Source of the DNA: Candidatus Buchananbacteria bacterium
Lineage (GTDB): Bacteria > Patescibacteriota > Patescibacteriia > CAIXNZ01
Assembly (NCBI GenBank): GCA_014729025.1
Contig: WJKP01000018.1
Span: forward strand, 1-47,154
Length of the DNA: 47,154 nucleotides
Reading direction: 5' to 3'
Part shown: piece by piece, positions 15,789-39,048 of the stretch
Layout: the number at the start of each line of letters is the position of its first letter
How positions within the stretch are numbered: the stretch's first letter is position 1
The notes under the pieces: model-generated
Seen by the model: the letters and a program-made list of their open reading frames with translations, nothing else
Database searches by the model: none
What the model was told of the DNA's origin: nothing
Made by a program: the position numbers and the translations under genes

Positions 15789-16877
15789 TTAATAACAAAA
15801 TTCTTTTATAAAATTATCATATAAAAACTCTGCCTTTTTTAATTGATCTTTGCTAATATACTCATTGGGCTGATGCGCCAAACCATTCCCTGGACCTAAA
15901 ATCACACAATCATAACCATATTTTTTATAATAAGTTCCTTCAGTCGCACCGTTAATTCCCACTACTTTTTTATTTGTTAACTTTTCCATACTATTAATCA
16001 GCTTTTTATTTTTAATCAGCATGGGCTCTATTTGATTTATTAATTTTATTTTAAATTTACAATTCATTTTTTTTAAAATTGCTAAAATATCCTGATAAAT
16101 CAAAACTCCCTGATTATAATTAACTGTCCTGTATTCAAATTCCAAGCAACAATAAGAAGGTATACGATTAATTAAATCTCCCCCTAAAACTTTGGCTACA
16201 TTAACAGTCGCAAAAGGCGCTTCAAATAAACTATTAAGCTTATTTTTTTGTTTTTTAAAATATTTTTCTAACTTATCAATAAAATCTTGTGCGATTAAAA
16301 TAGCATTAACGCCTTTATTAATTTCGGCGCCATGAGCTGCTTTGCCTTCAAATTCTATTTTAATAGCATAGGCTCCTTTTGAAGCAACAACCGGACCTAA
16401 CCCGGTATCTTCTGCTAAAATAATGTATTTGGTTTTTAATTTTATTTTTTTCAAAAAGCTCTGAATCCCTTCTATGGCCTCTTCTTCGCCAAAGGTAAAA
16501 ACTAAATTAAGTCCTTTTTTTAAATTTTTCAAATCTTGTTTTAAAACAGCTTGCAAAAAAGTTGCGATACCCCCTTTCATATCACTGGTGCCCAAGCCGT
16601 ATAATTTATTGCCTTTTTGTGTTAATTTAAACGGATCATAATTCCAGTCTTTGGTTGCAGGAACTGTGTCGGTATGGCCAGAAAAAGTTAAAACCGGTTT
16701 TTTTTGATTAAATTTTGCCAATAAGTTTAAATTTTTAGTTTTTTTATCTTTAACCATTTGTATTTTAAAACCAACTGGTTTTAACAAATCAGCAAGATAT
16801 TTCATAATGATTTTATTCTCTTGATCTTTAACTGTATTAAATTTGATTAATTTAGCTAAAATCTGTTGACTCTTCAT
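15789..16877 (-). CDS. M20 family metallopeptidase (DapE/ArgE-like)
   Basis: FSGHTDTVPATKDWNYDPF, GLGTSDMKGGIATFLQA, FTFGEEEAIEGIQSF, HQPNEYIS. Confidence 0.88.
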   Translation of the reverse strand: MKSQQILAKLIKFNTVKDQENKIIMKYLADLLKPVGFKIQMVKDKKTKNLNLLAKFNQKKPVLTFSGHTDTVPATKDWNYDPFKLTQKGNKLYGLGTSDMKGGIATFLQAVLKQDLKNLKKGLNLVFTFGEEEAIEGIQSFLKKIKLKTKYIILAEDTGLGPVVASKGAYAIKIEFEGKAAHGAEINKGVNAILIAQDFIDKLEKYFKKQKNKLNSLFEAPFATVNVAKVLGGDLINRIPSYCCLEFEYRTVNYNQGVLIYQDILAILKKMNCKFKIKLINQIEPMLIKNKKLINSMEKLTNKKVVGINGATEGTYYKKYGYDCVILGPGNGLAHQPNEYISKDQLKKAEFLYDNFIKEFCY

Positions 16878-16905: not shown

Positions 16906-16943
16906 GGGCAGACTAAAATTAAAATTTTAATTTTAGTCTGCCC
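16906..16943. repeat. Perfect 38-bp palindrome (terminator-like hairpin)
   Basis: GGGCAGACTAAAATTAAAATTTTAATTTTAGTCTGCCC, directly after a 25-aa micro-ORF. Confidence 0.9.
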
Positions 16944-16951
16944 ATCTTGAT

Positions 16952-17029
16952 TTAGTGCCACTCGTCAAAATCTCCCTCAGGAAAAACCGAATGGCTAAAC
17001 AATGTCCTTAACCGCGCTGAGTTTTTCAT
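16952..17029 (-). CDS. Candidate 25-aa microprotein MKNSARLRTLFSHSVFPEGDFDEWH
   Basis: SD AAAAAAGGAGAAAAA directly before ATG; ORF followed by the 38-bp palindrome. Below the ORF-track size cut-off. Confidence 0.55.
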   Translation of the reverse strand: MKNSARLRTLFSHSVFPEGDFDEWH

Positions 17030-17059
17030 TTTTTCTCCTTTTTTCTTGAAGTTAGTTTT

Positions 17060-17090
17060 GAGCAGGCGGGCCTTAAAGGCCCGCCTGCTC
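17060..17090. repeat. GC-rich perfect inverted repeat (15-bp arms)
   Basis: GAGCAGGCGGGCCTT-A-AAGGCCCGCCTGCTC between the two micro-ORFs. Confidence 0.85.
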
Positions 17091-17098
17091 AGTGCTCT

Positions 17099-17140
17099 TT
17101 ACTTCCACGAACGATGGCCTTTGTAACCCTTGCAGCTCAT
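17099..17140 (-). CDS. Candidate 13-aa microprotein MSCKGYKGHRSWK
   Basis: GAGAAAGGAGGCGCTTAGT-ATG: SD at good spacing; GC-rich hairpin follows the stop. Confidence 0.5.
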   Translation of the reverse strand: MSCKGYKGHRSWK

Positions 17141-17205
17141 ACTAAGCGCCTCCTTTCTCCCATATATTTAACCAATTGCTTGGTTATGGGACCTGTTAAA
17201 GGTAC

Positions 17206-17242
17206 AAATAAAAAATAGCCCTTGATGCTAGGACTATTTTTT
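17206..17242 (-). terminator. Intrinsic terminator-like hairpin
   Basis: Minus strand AAAAAATAGTCCTAGCATCAAGGGCTATTTTTTATTT. Confidence 0.65.
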
Positions 17243-17394
17243 ATGTAAAAATATCTATTGATTCTATTTTAGCGGTAAATTCATTACATCAAAAAAATAA
17301 CCTAGCACATTAATGGGGCATCGTCTGTAATGTTTCCAATTATTAATTTGTAGATTATTTTTCAAATTCATAAATTTTTTTAGCTTATATCTTA

Positions 17395-17423: not shown

Positions 17424-17476
17424 TGCTTTTAGGGTTATCAATGTGTAAAAGTCAACTTTTTTATTCATAAATTTAT

Positions 17477-18481
17477 TTAAAAATATTGTTTGGCAGCCTG
17501 CCAAACTGAAGCATCGTTATGAACGGTTTTTAACCAATACCACCATTCTGCACCCCAAAAATAAGCCCTGGCAAAATTAGTTTTTTTAGCATATTCCGCA
17601 TTTTTTATTAACTGCCTGGCATTCATTGAATGGTAATGAATATCAATTGGAGTCTCTAATGGTCCGTAAGGAAACCATGGTTCCGCCTGTAGCTCCGCGA
17701 TTAATAAATTTTGCTCTTCTTTGCCAAAAATTGCGGCCTTAACTCTATAAAAAGAAGGGGGTAAAAAGAAATACTCCCAATAACCTATATATTTATTATA
17801 AGTAATCCGGTATAATGTGGTCCCAAAATAATCACCCATTTTTATAACCGGATACCAAGAACTTAATTCACCCGAATCAGTTAATAAAATCGGCCGATCA
17901 TCCAAAGCCCTGACAATATCGATTTCTTCTTGTAATTCTTTTTTAGTCATTTGGGGACATTCTCCAAAAAAATCTAAAAAGGGCTCGTTTTCAACTTGCC
18001 ACATTTCAACAGCTGGATGATCTTTATATCTCTCAACAACAACTCTAATATTTTTTCTGGCCCGGGCCCTGGCATCAGCTGGGTTTAATTGATTAACCCA
18101 ATCGGGCTCATGACATTCAGGCCAGCGTGGCTGTCTTCGGCCTACGACTAATATAATTTTTACATCTCTTTTTTTCGCTTCGTCTAATTGCCAATCAATT
18201 GCGGAAAAATCATATTGATCTTGAGCTGGTTCAATATCTTCCCAATAAGTAGGTATTCTTATATATTTAACTTTTAAATCGTCCAAAATGGCTTGATAAT
18301 TTTCACGCCAATTAAGCTTTAAATGTGAAGAGAATTTTTTAGAAAAAGTAATTCCATAATTCATTTTTGGATTAGCTTCATGAGTCTGAACAGCCAAAAT
18401 TATATAAGTAATAACAAAAATCACCAAAAGAACTATAATAATTGTTATTATAAGTTGTTTTATGTTTAATTGCTGTTTCAT
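17477..18481 (-). CDS. Membrane-anchored clan GH-A-like glycoside hydrolase (TIM barrel)
   Basis: YIRIPTYWEDIEPAQDQYDFSAIDWQLDEAKKRDVKIILVVG and MWQVENEPF (catalytic NEP-type motif). Confidence 0.75.
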   Translation of the reverse strand: MKQQLNIKQLIITIIIVLLVIFVITYIILAVQTHEANPKMNYGITFSKKFSSHLKLNWRENYQAILDDLKVKYIRIPTYWEDIEPAQDQYDFSAIDWQLDEAKKRDVKIILVVGRRQPRWPECHEPDWVNQLNPADARARARKNIRVVVERYKDHPAVEMWQVENEPFLDFFGECPQMTKKELQEEIDIVRALDDRPILLTDSGELSSWYPVIKMGDYFGTTLYRITYNKYIGYWEYFFLPPSFYRVKAAIFGKEEQNLLIAELQAEPWFPYGPLETPIDIHYHSMNARQLIKNAEYAKKTNFARAYFWGAEWWYWLKTVHNDASVWQAAKQYF

Positions 18482-27565: not shown

Positions 27566-28891
27566 TTACTCGTGATTGTGCTTTATTTTAGGATTTTTTT
27601 CATTTTTAGTGATACAGGTTTGTTTGATTATCTCCATGACTTTACGATTACCCATTAAGTTTCTGACATAATCACGATATTGGGCTGATTCCAGTTGCTT
27701 GATTATTTCAGGATTATTTTGATACATAGCTTTGGCCTGTTCCAGTTCTTTGTCTATTTCGGCTTCAGGAATTTCAATATTTTGATCAAAAAATATTTGG
27801 CGCATAATTAAAGCGCTTTGGACTCTTTTTAGGGCTTGAGACGCAAAATCTAGTTTTAGCTGGTCAACGGTTTTATTTAAGTGTTTTAAATAGTCGTCAA
27901 ATTTTAAACCTTGTTGGCTAATATTTGATTCCAATTCTTGAATCATTTTATCGGTTTCAGATGTCAAAAGCATATCAGGTATTTCTCCAAATTCTGACTT
28001 GGCAATTAATTTTTCCAAAAGTTCGCGATCTAATTTTTCCTCAGCTTTATGTGATTCTTCGTGTTCTAGGTTTTGTTTGATTTGTTGTTTTAATTTAGCC
28101 AAGGATTCTTGCCCTAATTCTTTGGCAAATTCATCATTAAGTTCTGGCAGTTCGCGTTTATAAACATTTAAAATTTTAACTTTAAATTTAGCAGGTTTAC
28201 CAGCCAAATCTTTATTATGATATTCTTCTGGAAAATTTAATTCAAATTCTTTTTCTTCGTCTTTTTTCAAACCGATCAAATTTTTCTCAAAACCGGGTAT
28301 AAAATGATCAGAACCAATAACTAACGGATATTTTTTTTGCGCACCGCCTTCAATCGGAACATTATCACGAAATACATCAAAATCAAGTTCAACTTTATCG
28401 CCTTTTTCAATTTTTTTATCTTCCAATGTTTCTTTAGCTCTGGATTCTCTTAATTCTTCCAAAACTTTATTAACTTGTTCATCGGTAATTTTTATTTCTG
28501 GTTCTTTTATTCTAATTGATTGCCAGTCACCAAGCTTAACTTCAGGAATTAAAGCAATAGTTGCTTTGTAAACAAAATCATTCTCCGGGGCTAATTTGAC
28601 AAATTCAACCTTTGGAGAGCCCAAGGGCTCTAGTTTTTCTTTAGTTGCTAGATCAATATATGATTTTTCTACGGCTAAACCGGCTGCTTCTTCATAGAGT
28701 TTCATCTCACCAACTCTTTGTTTGATGGCATCAATTGAAGCTTTGCCTGGCCGAAACCCTTCAATTTTGGTTGATTGAGAAATGTTTTCTGCTGCTTTTT
28801 GTAAAAATGATTTTAATTCTTCATTAGGAATAGTAACTGTCATTTCTACTTCATTTTTTGGTAATTTTTTTATTTCGTGTTGATAATTCAT
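27566..28891 (-). CDS. tig: Trigger factor (peptidyl-prolyl isomerase chaperone)
   Basis: KIEGFRPGKASIDAIKQRVG, KGDKVELDFDVFRDNVPIEGGAQKKYPLVIGSDHFIPGFEKNLIGLKKDEEKEF. Confidence 0.93.
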   Translation of the reverse strand: MNYQHEIKKLPKNEVEMTVTIPNEELKSFLQKAAENISQSTKIEGFRPGKASIDAIKQRVGEMKLYEEAAGLAVEKSYIDLATKEKLEPLGSPKVEFVKLAPENDFVYKATIALIPEVKLGDWQSIRIKEPEIKITDEQVNKVLEELRESRAKETLEDKKIEKGDKVELDFDVFRDNVPIEGGAQKKYPLVIGSDHFIPGFEKNLIGLKKDEEKEFELNFPEEYHNKDLAGKPAKFKVKILNVYKRELPELNDEFAKELGQESLAKLKQQIKQNLEHEESHKAEEKLDRELLEKLIAKSEFGEIPDMLLTSETDKMIQELESNISQQGLKFDDYLKHLNKTVDQLKLDFASQALKRVQSALIMRQIFFDQNIEIPEAEIDKELEQAKAMYQNNPEIIKQLESAQYRDYVRNLMGNRKVMEIIKQTCITKNEKNPKIKHNHE

Positions 28892-33938: not shown

Positions 33939-33995
33939 TTAGCACGATTGTTTGTACTTGCACAGTCCGTGTTTTGTTCTTTTAACCTTTTTCAT
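33939..33995 (-). CDS. Candidate 18-aa basic microprotein MKKVKRTKHGLCKYKQSC
   Basis: SD AAGGAGGACTAAAC-ATG; upstream TTGACA-N18-CATACT; downstream bidirectional terminator. Confidence 0.6.
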   Translation of the reverse strand: MKKVKRTKHGLCKYKQSC

Positions 33996-36540: not shown

Positions 36541-36610
36541 CAATTCAATTTTTATTCCCTTTTTTAGGGAATCTCCAATAATGTCCGTGGTGAACTTTAT
36601 CATCACATTT

Positions 36611-38110
<1,500 letters not shown>

Positions 38111-38180
38111 TAGGGAGTTTTGAGTAAATTGTTATTTTGTAATATTTTGCTCTGATTCGGTCGGGCCCTTTTTTAGGGCA

Positions 38181-38199
38181 ACGATTCTATCACTTTTTA
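38181..38199 (+). repeat. 3' arm of the 16S-flanking processing stem
   Basis: ACGATTCTATCACTTTTTA pairs with 36522-36540. Confidence 0.85.
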
Positions 38200-38210
38200 G
38201 AGGTTAAATA

Positions 38211-38271
38211 AAAAAGGCTAGCTAAGTTAATATTTTTAAATATTTAGATATTGGTTTAGCTAGCCTTTTTT
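38211..38271 (+). terminator. Long-stem terminator ending the 16S transcription unit
   Basis: AAAAAGGCTAGCTAA ... TTAGCTAGCCTTTTT (15-bp arms) plus T-run. Confidence 0.75.
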
Positions 38272-38360
38272 GCTATAATTTGATGTATAATTTGAGTATT
38301 TAGTTTTGAGTAATTAGCAAAGAGTAATTACAAATTATTATATTCAGAGTGTATAGCTCT

Positions 38361-38390
38361 GTCTACGCTAATGCTTTGGCGGGCAGGCAG
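38361..38390 (+). repeat. Interspersed repeat copy 1
   Basis: GTCTACGCTAATGCTTTGGCGGGCAGGCAG; 25/30 identical to copy 2. Confidence 0.75.
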
Positions 38391-38455
38391 CTGGTTAAAA
38401 TAATTAATTTTTTATGCCAGCTTCGCTCAAGTATTTTCAAAATCATAATCTTTAT

Positions 38456-38529
38456 GGGCGTATAGCTCAGCTGGTTAGAGCGCATCGCTGATAACGATGA
38501 GGTCCCTGGTTCGAATCCAGGTACGCCCA
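38456..38529 (+). tRNA. tRNA-Ile(GAT)
   Basis: GGGCGTATAGCTCAGCTGGTTAGAGCGCATCGCTGATAACGATGAGGTC...GGTTCGAATCCAGGTACGCCCA; complete cloverleaf, no encoded CCA. Confidence 0.95.
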
Positions 38530-38681
38530 CCTTTACGTCGTAAAAGTTCAGGCCTAAAGACCTTTGAGCCAAGGAACTGACGAACAAATTGAGGAAGTGA
38601 CTAATTATTTATGAAGCAAAAGAGGTTCACGAAAGATAAATTTTTTGACAGACCATATTGGACAAGACTACAATTAAAATA

Positions 38682-38753
38682 GCCCGGGTAGCTCAGTGGT
38701 AGAGCAAAGGACTGAAAATCCTTGTGTCGTGAGTTCGATTCTCACCCCGGGCA
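38682..38753 (+). tRNA. tRNA-Phe(GAA)
   Basis: GCCCGGGTAGCTCAGTGGTAGAGCAAAGGACTGAAAATCCTT...GAGTTCGATTCTCACCCCGGGCA. Confidence 0.95.
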
Positions 38754-38780
38754 CAGTTGTATTATCGGCGCGTGACGCCC

Positions 38781-38810
38781 GTCGTCGCTAAAGCTTCGGC
38801 GGACAGGCAG
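38781..38810 (+). repeat. Interspersed repeat copy 2
   Basis: GTCGTCGCTAAAGCTTCGGCGGACAGGCAG. Confidence 0.75.
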
Positions 38811-38877
38811 ATTGATTAAGTTTTTATTATATTTAGGCCAACTGCGTTCGAATTTTTAAAACAACAACATATTTTAC

Positions 38878-38954
38878 CGGGGCGTGGCGCAGTTGGCTAG
38901 CGCGCATGGTTTGGGACCATGAGGTCGTGGGTTCAAGTCCCACCGCCCCGACCA
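38878..38954 (+). tRNA. tRNA-Pro(TGG), CCA encoded
   Basis: CGGGGCGTGGCGCAGTTGGCTAGCGCGCATGGTTTGGGACCATGAGGTC...GGTTCAAGTCCCACCGCCCCGACCA. Confidence 0.95.
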
Positions 38955-38972
38955 TAAAAAAGCAGGTAAAGA

Positions 38973-39048
38973 GCGGGTGTCGTATAATGGCTTATTATAT
39001 CAGCCTTCCAAGCTGAGGATGGCGGTTCGATTCCGCTCACCCGCTCCA
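38973..39048 (+). tRNA. tRNA-Gly(TCC), CCA encoded
   Basis: GCGGGTGTCGTATAATGGCTTATTATATCAGCCTTCCAAGCTGAGGATGGCGGTTCGATTCCGCTCACCCGCTCCA. Confidence 0.95.

Follow-up and report, generated by a model that had tools for sequence, protein, structure and literature searches.

Predicted leader-peptide attenuation and two conserved micro-ORFs upstream of an M20 deacylase gene in Patescibacteria

Background

In attenuators of the trp and his type, a leader ORF is followed by a terminator with a U-run and a downstream structural gene, an antiterminator overlaps the 3' part of the leader ORF, and the position of the ribosome decides between the two RNA structures. The locus we describe here, from the genome of a Candidatus Buchananbacteria bacterium, shares this arrangement, and in silico folding of the window predicts that ribosome position decides. 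It differs in that the leader ORF (ORF A) has neither a run of one control codon nor a Shine-Dalgarno sequence (SD), and in that two extra SD-led micro-ORFs (ORFs C and B), each with its own hairpin, lie between the terminator and the gene. The literature we searched contained no paper on a leader-peptide attenuator in Patescibacteria.

Two further classes of short peptide bear comparison with B and C. Gram-positive signal peptides of the RRNPP type have a variable N-terminus and a few conserved C-terminal residues, a pattern that B and C share, but the latter carry no clear secretion signal (by eye) and have no receptor gene among their eight neighbours. In TnaC and SpeFL, the ribosome stalls at the stop codon (PMC8429421). 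Like them, B and C are short and precede a gene of amino-acid metabolism, and the conserved residues of B and C are the stop-proximal ones, with a variable N-terminus. On the other hand, stalling is putative for B and C, what follows each of them is a hairpin and not a rut site, and two ORFs stand in series with an order that is swapped between genomes.

Results

Two SD-led micro-ORFs with adjoining hairpins

The source genome comprises 1.08 Mb in 61 contigs (97% complete), and the window, meaning the whole stretch of 47,154 nucleotides that we analysed, is its contig C4. A first-pass annotation of this DNA had proposed two SD-led micro-ORFs of 13 and 25 aa, and both are indeed present on the minus strand, in a 599-bp gap between a glycoside-hydrolase-like gene and an M20 gene (Table 1), with dnaN and dnaA 3-5 kb away. 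ORF C is headed by AAAGGAGGCGCTTAGT-ATG (minus strand 17156-17138) and ORF B by AAAAGGAGAAAAA-ATG (minus strand 17042-17027). The hairpin reported between the two is a perfect GC-rich repeat as described, although it extends over 17091-17059 with 16-bp arms rather than over 17060-17090 with 15 bp, and the 38-nt perfect palindrome was recovered exactly as placed, at 16943-16906. The first of these structures starts 7 nt past the ORF C stop and the second 8 nt past the ORF B stop; neither has a T-run on the minus strand, in contrast to the majority of strong hairpins that follow larger genes in the window. The hairpin directly 5' of the ORF C SD was not seen in relatives.

Table 1 Features of the hydrolase-M20 gap and its borders, in window coordinates
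Feature	Position	Strand	Basis or remark
Glycoside-hydrolase-like gene	17477-18481	minus	upstream border of gap
23-nt box AAAAAA[CG]T[CT]GACTT[AT]TNNACATT, just 5' of -35	17440..17462	-	three-locus comparison
Promoter-like TTGACA-17-TACAAA	17395..17423	-	read from sequence
ORF A, 35-aa predicted leader peptide MNLKNNLQINNWKHYRRCPINVLGYFFDVMNLPLK*, no SD	17264..17371	-	translation
Putative attenuator region 2, within ORF A (codons VLGYFF), complementary to terminator 5' arm	17291..17308	-	duplex, folding
U-run terminator	17205..17242	-	sequence, folding
Hairpin CCCATA..TATGGG, directly 5' of ORF C SD	17159..17190	-	fold, coordinates
SD AAAGGAGG of ORF C	17149..17156	-	sequence
ORF C, 13 aa, MSCKGYKGHRSWK*	17099..17140	-	translation, tail comparison
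Perfect GC-rich hairpin, 16-bp arms, 1-nt spacer	17059..17091	-	inverted-repeat search, fold
SD AAAAGGAG of ORF B	17035..17042	-	sequence
ORF B, 25 aa, MKNSARLRTLFSHSVFPEGDFDEWH*	16952..17029	-	translation, tail comparison
38-nt perfect palindrome	16906..16943	-	inverted-repeat search, fold
M20 metallopeptidase / ArgE-DapE-like deacylase gene	15789..16877	-	Pfam PF01546 1.8e-29

G+C content between the ORF C SD and the palindrome is 45%, compared with 33% for the window, and the region folds far better than its dinucleotide shuffles (z = -8.5; 0/100 shuffles as good). Most larger genes of the window lack an SD and have an AT-rich start region instead, so that tiny ORFs with a strong SD stand out here, as had been remarked at first pass. 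Neither peptide matched an entry in Rfam, Pfam, NCBIfam or PHROGs.

Elsewhere in the window, a further SD-led micro-ORF (33939-33995, minus strand; SD AAGGAGGACTAAACATG, peptide MKKVKRTKHGLCKYKQSC*, 18 aa) has a promoter-like TTGACA box of its own as well as a hairpin resembling a terminator, and seems to form a gene by itself; no match to a degenerate pattern derived from it was found in the other family genomes. Positions 36608-39048 hold a 16S rRNA gene, then four tRNA genes, then protein genes, and since no 23S rRNA was found in the window, the rRNA genes seem to be unlinked.

Peptide tails are conserved at one locus in three genera

The source genome, as the sole member of its genus compared, was set beside eight other genomes of the family (nine in all), and relatives of the micro-ORFs were found by reading out the syntenic hydrolase-M20 gaps in full. 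The hydrolase gene is present in all nine. The M20 gene is present in three (the window, G008 and G006, at 65-68% identity), which belong to three genera, and every one of these carries micro-ORFs with matching tails directly upstream of it; in the six genomes without M20 the micro-ORFs are absent and other genes come after the hydrolase. At G005:C4 (c. 27950-28600; L048 / L042), the last 30 codons of the hydrolase gene recur about 520 bp downstream, and each copy is followed by a small gene of its own; this looks like a local duplication.

ORF B ends in FDE[FW]H* and is 25 aa long in the window (MKNSARLRTLFSHSVFPEGDFDEWH), 61 aa in G008 (...YSGHGDSYYPTGSFDEFH) and 59 aa in G006 (...WVYSEDPFCRGPEENFDEFH*), with a longer common C-terminal stretch of about 12-20 residues. 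ORF C, of 13, 17 and 13 aa in the three genomes, ends in HRSWK* or HDWK*: the G006 relative (MSRHSCNIHRSWK) has HRSWK in common with the window and the G008 relative (MKKYRKDWTHRIYHDWK) has WK. The ORFs of the G006 and G008 gaps are likewise SD-led. N-termini, lengths and gene order all vary: C precedes B in the window, B precedes C in G008, and in G006 an extra 42-aa basic ORF stands between B and a following C. In C-anchored shuffles, similarity of ORF B was equalled by 0/5000 for all three pairs, and that of ORF C gave p = 0.0004, 0.006 and 0.017, with the G008 copy weakest. Three HRSWK* codons differ between the window and G006, all synonymously.

When 381 genomes of the class were scanned for the two tail patterns, HRSWK* preceded by an SD turned up in the window and G006 alone, and FDE[FW]H* was matched at four other places, all inside other genes and rejected as relatives because of those positions; this latter pattern left out the G006 copy, which ends in TAG. 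One HRSWK pattern match, in G119, was discarded by eye because the reading frame of its ATG does not give this tail. No match was returned for a degenerate search pattern of the 13-residue peptide in genome contigs or for a similar pattern in viral contigs, and a nucleotide search of the region in the 381 genomes matched only at the A-rich SD motif. A protein search of the family with the 25-aa peptide came back empty at E<=1, because only the tail is conserved. The first-pass annotation would have given up its proposal had relatives lacked the peptides or shown non-coding substitutions, and we found the opposite: the peptides recur at the same locus in two other genera, and the changes in their tails are mostly synonymous. 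By comparative sequence criteria, then, both micro-ORFs are real and conserved.

A predicted attenuator precedes the micro-ORFs

Between the hydrolase gene and ORF C lie elements that the first-pass annotation had not described, namely an upstream box, a promoter, leader ORF A and a U-run terminator. The degenerate motif of the 23-nt box is matched exactly at the three M20 loci and at no other locus fetched; 0.10 matches would be expected in the window at <=3 mismatches, and an exact one was found. The box could be the site of a regulator. We dropped a reading of it as a DnaA box (TTTTACACA), such matches occurring at chance frequency in the window. The TTGACA of the promoter-like element is found at the aligned position in all three M20 genomes, and a consensus scan did not list this element because its second hexamer ends in A.

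Across the three loci, counterparts of ORF A of 27-35 aa are followed by a U-run terminator. The G008 homologue (MNLQNSPQFNSWKHKRTHLKELGYFCRC), whose link to M20 runs through two contig ends overlapping at about 92% identity, resembles that of the window more closely than any of 5000 shuffles (0/5000); the end of contig C61 in this split locus loops back on itself, which suggests an assembly artefact. The ORF at the same place in G006 is not similar by sequence alone (p 0.40), and weak matches to ORF A elsewhere in the 381 genomes were at chance level (best E 8.7e-4).

In the window, the 5' arm of the terminator (17242-17227) can partner either with its own 3' arm or with region 2, the complementary 3' part of ORF A (GTGCTAGGTTATTTTTTT), to form an antiterminator. 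We first spotted this arrangement by eye and tested it afterwards. Predicted leader-terminator duplex energies in the three genomes are -17.4 (window), -17.6 and -20.1 kcal/mol, with shuffle p of 0 (window, 0/1000), 0 and 0.002. A codon-preserving test of the leader-arm pairing gave p = 0.029 (window), 0.026 and 0.004, and a codon-order control gave 0, 6 and 3 of 500. Each leader also pairs best with its own arm when compared against the other two arms and nine ordinary terminator arms.

Folding of the window locus suggests that the choice between these helices depends on the ribosome. Before the 3' arm is made, region 2 pairs with the 5' arm with probability 0.91. Free RNA goes to the terminator (0.99), as does RNA with a ribosome mask at the ORF A stop (1.00). 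A ribosome stalled at W12 gives the antiterminator (0.91), as does one at H14 (0.85), and with the ribosome at Arg16 or Arg17 the terminator and antiterminator are more evenly matched. G006 behaves largely like the window, but with the antiterminator as default. In G008, a ribosome effect appears only before the terminator 3' arm is transcribed. Once complete, the terminator is in every case the more stable structure there, and control would have to be kinetic.

A cluster of Trp, His and Arg codons occupies codons 10-18 of ORF A in all three genomes. His (p 0.005) and Arg (p 0.004) are enriched in ORF A with no codon run of a single residue. Cys enrichment is just as strong, so that all of this may reflect base composition. 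Rfam listed no RNA leader in the region above gathering score, and a permissive scan gave sub-threshold, chance-like matches only. As predicted from three genomes, the layout is that of a leader-peptide transcription attenuator, with a leader ORF before an intrinsic terminator and an antiterminator overlapping the leader.

The downstream gene encodes a putative acetylornithine deacetylase-like M20 protein

The M20 protein scores well above the PF01546 cut-off, and stays under the cut-offs of the acetylornithine deacetylase family TIGR01892 (249.7 bits against 297.7) and the ArgE/DapE subfamily TIGR01910 (202.8 against 217.6). Its nearest solved structure is an acetylornithine deacetylase. By sequence it thus appears closest to acetylornithine deacetylases, with scores that fall short of membership in ArgE. 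Seven distant M20 homologues in the class (29-35% identity) have no such micro-ORFs upstream; in 4/7, which come from other families (L063, L067, L068, L069), a GNAT acetyltransferase gene lies upstream of M20 with a hairpin between, an adjacency that would fit N-acetyl amino-acid chemistry. Hairpins without a U-run also stand 5' of some distant M20 genes in the class.

Discussion

The mutually exclusive helices, the conserved tails and SDs and the gene linkage to M20 are read from the sequences of three genomes, and on this comparative basis we propose, with a probability of roughly 55%, a regulated micro-ORF-M20 operon in which A serves as an attenuator leader and B and C as further cis-acting leader peptides. 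A ribosome finishing ORF A would cover region 2, so that the terminator forms and transcription stops, and a ribosome slowed at Trp/His/Arg codons 12-17 would leave region 2 free to form the antiterminator, allowing the micro-ORFs and M20 to be transcribed. Several observations count against this reading: ORF A of G006 is not recognisably similar to the other two, G006 has the antiterminator as its default, the finished terminator of G008 stays the more stable fold, ORF A has no run of one control codon, and the G008 link from ORF A to M20 depends on the imperfect contig overlap. More tentatively, B and C would then be translated and act in cis, where a delay in termination at ...SWK* or ...DEWH* could adjust mRNA stability or readthrough toward M20.

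We favour a cis role for B and C because the only conserved residues are those nearest the peptidyl-transferase centre at termination, because TnaC and SpeFL offer precedents for stalling at a stop codon (PMC8429421), and because in the window a hairpin begins 7-8 nt past each stop, where it would be within reach of a stop-paused ribosome. Against this, ORF B at 59-61 aa in two genomes is long for a leader, and the absence of a U-run from the hairpins after B and C also seems to speak against such a role. An extension of this model, which we regard as speculative and doubtful, would make the locus a multi-input nascent-chain sensor for the deacylase of an ultra-small bacterium, built of tandem interchangeable leader modules (SD, micro-ORF with a stop-proximal tail, hairpin) behind an attenuator, with HRSWK* and FDE[FW]H* as new termination-arrest motifs.

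The main rival to the cis role, possible but less likely, is that B and C act in trans, as a pair of microproteins or peptide signals expressed together with M20, with the upstream attenuator controlling all three; the active part, possibly after trimming, would be the conserved C-terminal residues, and the variable N-terminus would serve as their carrier. B and C do have the strongest SDs of the region, with M20 and most genes having none, B shares more of its C-terminus than a bare tail, and the swapped order and the additional basic ORF in G006 are changes that cis-acting leaders would tolerate less easily. Yet no version of B or C shows a clear hydrophobic or secretion-like segment by eye, a Pfam scan of the eight neighbour genes found no receptor, peptide transporter or modifying enzyme, and relatives of B and C are confined to one locus. 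The first-pass annotation had left leader peptide, signal and microprotein family side by side, a question now settled only in part, with the newly found attenuator favouring leader peptides.

It is improbable that B and C are translated merely as generic upstream ORFs that protect or space the mRNA, with their peptide sequence immaterial. Such a role would accommodate the hypervariable N-termini, the hairpins after each ORF, which are the clearest feature, and the U-run-free hairpins that precede some distant M20 genes too, but the peptide tails are conserved between genera beyond what shuffles predict, and their codons change synonymously, which argues that some of the peptide sequence matters. 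That the micro-ORFs are chance ORFs or decaying intergenic fragments is very improbable: they are short, absent from most relatives and without a family match, but the same locus, tails and SDs in three genera, together with 381-genome pattern scans that were otherwise essentially empty, have largely refuted this already.

Peptides of 13-25 aa with about five conserved residues fall under the detection of gene finders and family libraries, and micro-ORF modules of such size may be widely missed. Patescibacteria have reduced genomes, and little is known of their gene regulation. If the proposed attenuated operon is correct, a conserved attenuator with two extra conserved micro-ORFs would demonstrate ribosome-based sensing of amino-acid supply even in such cells.
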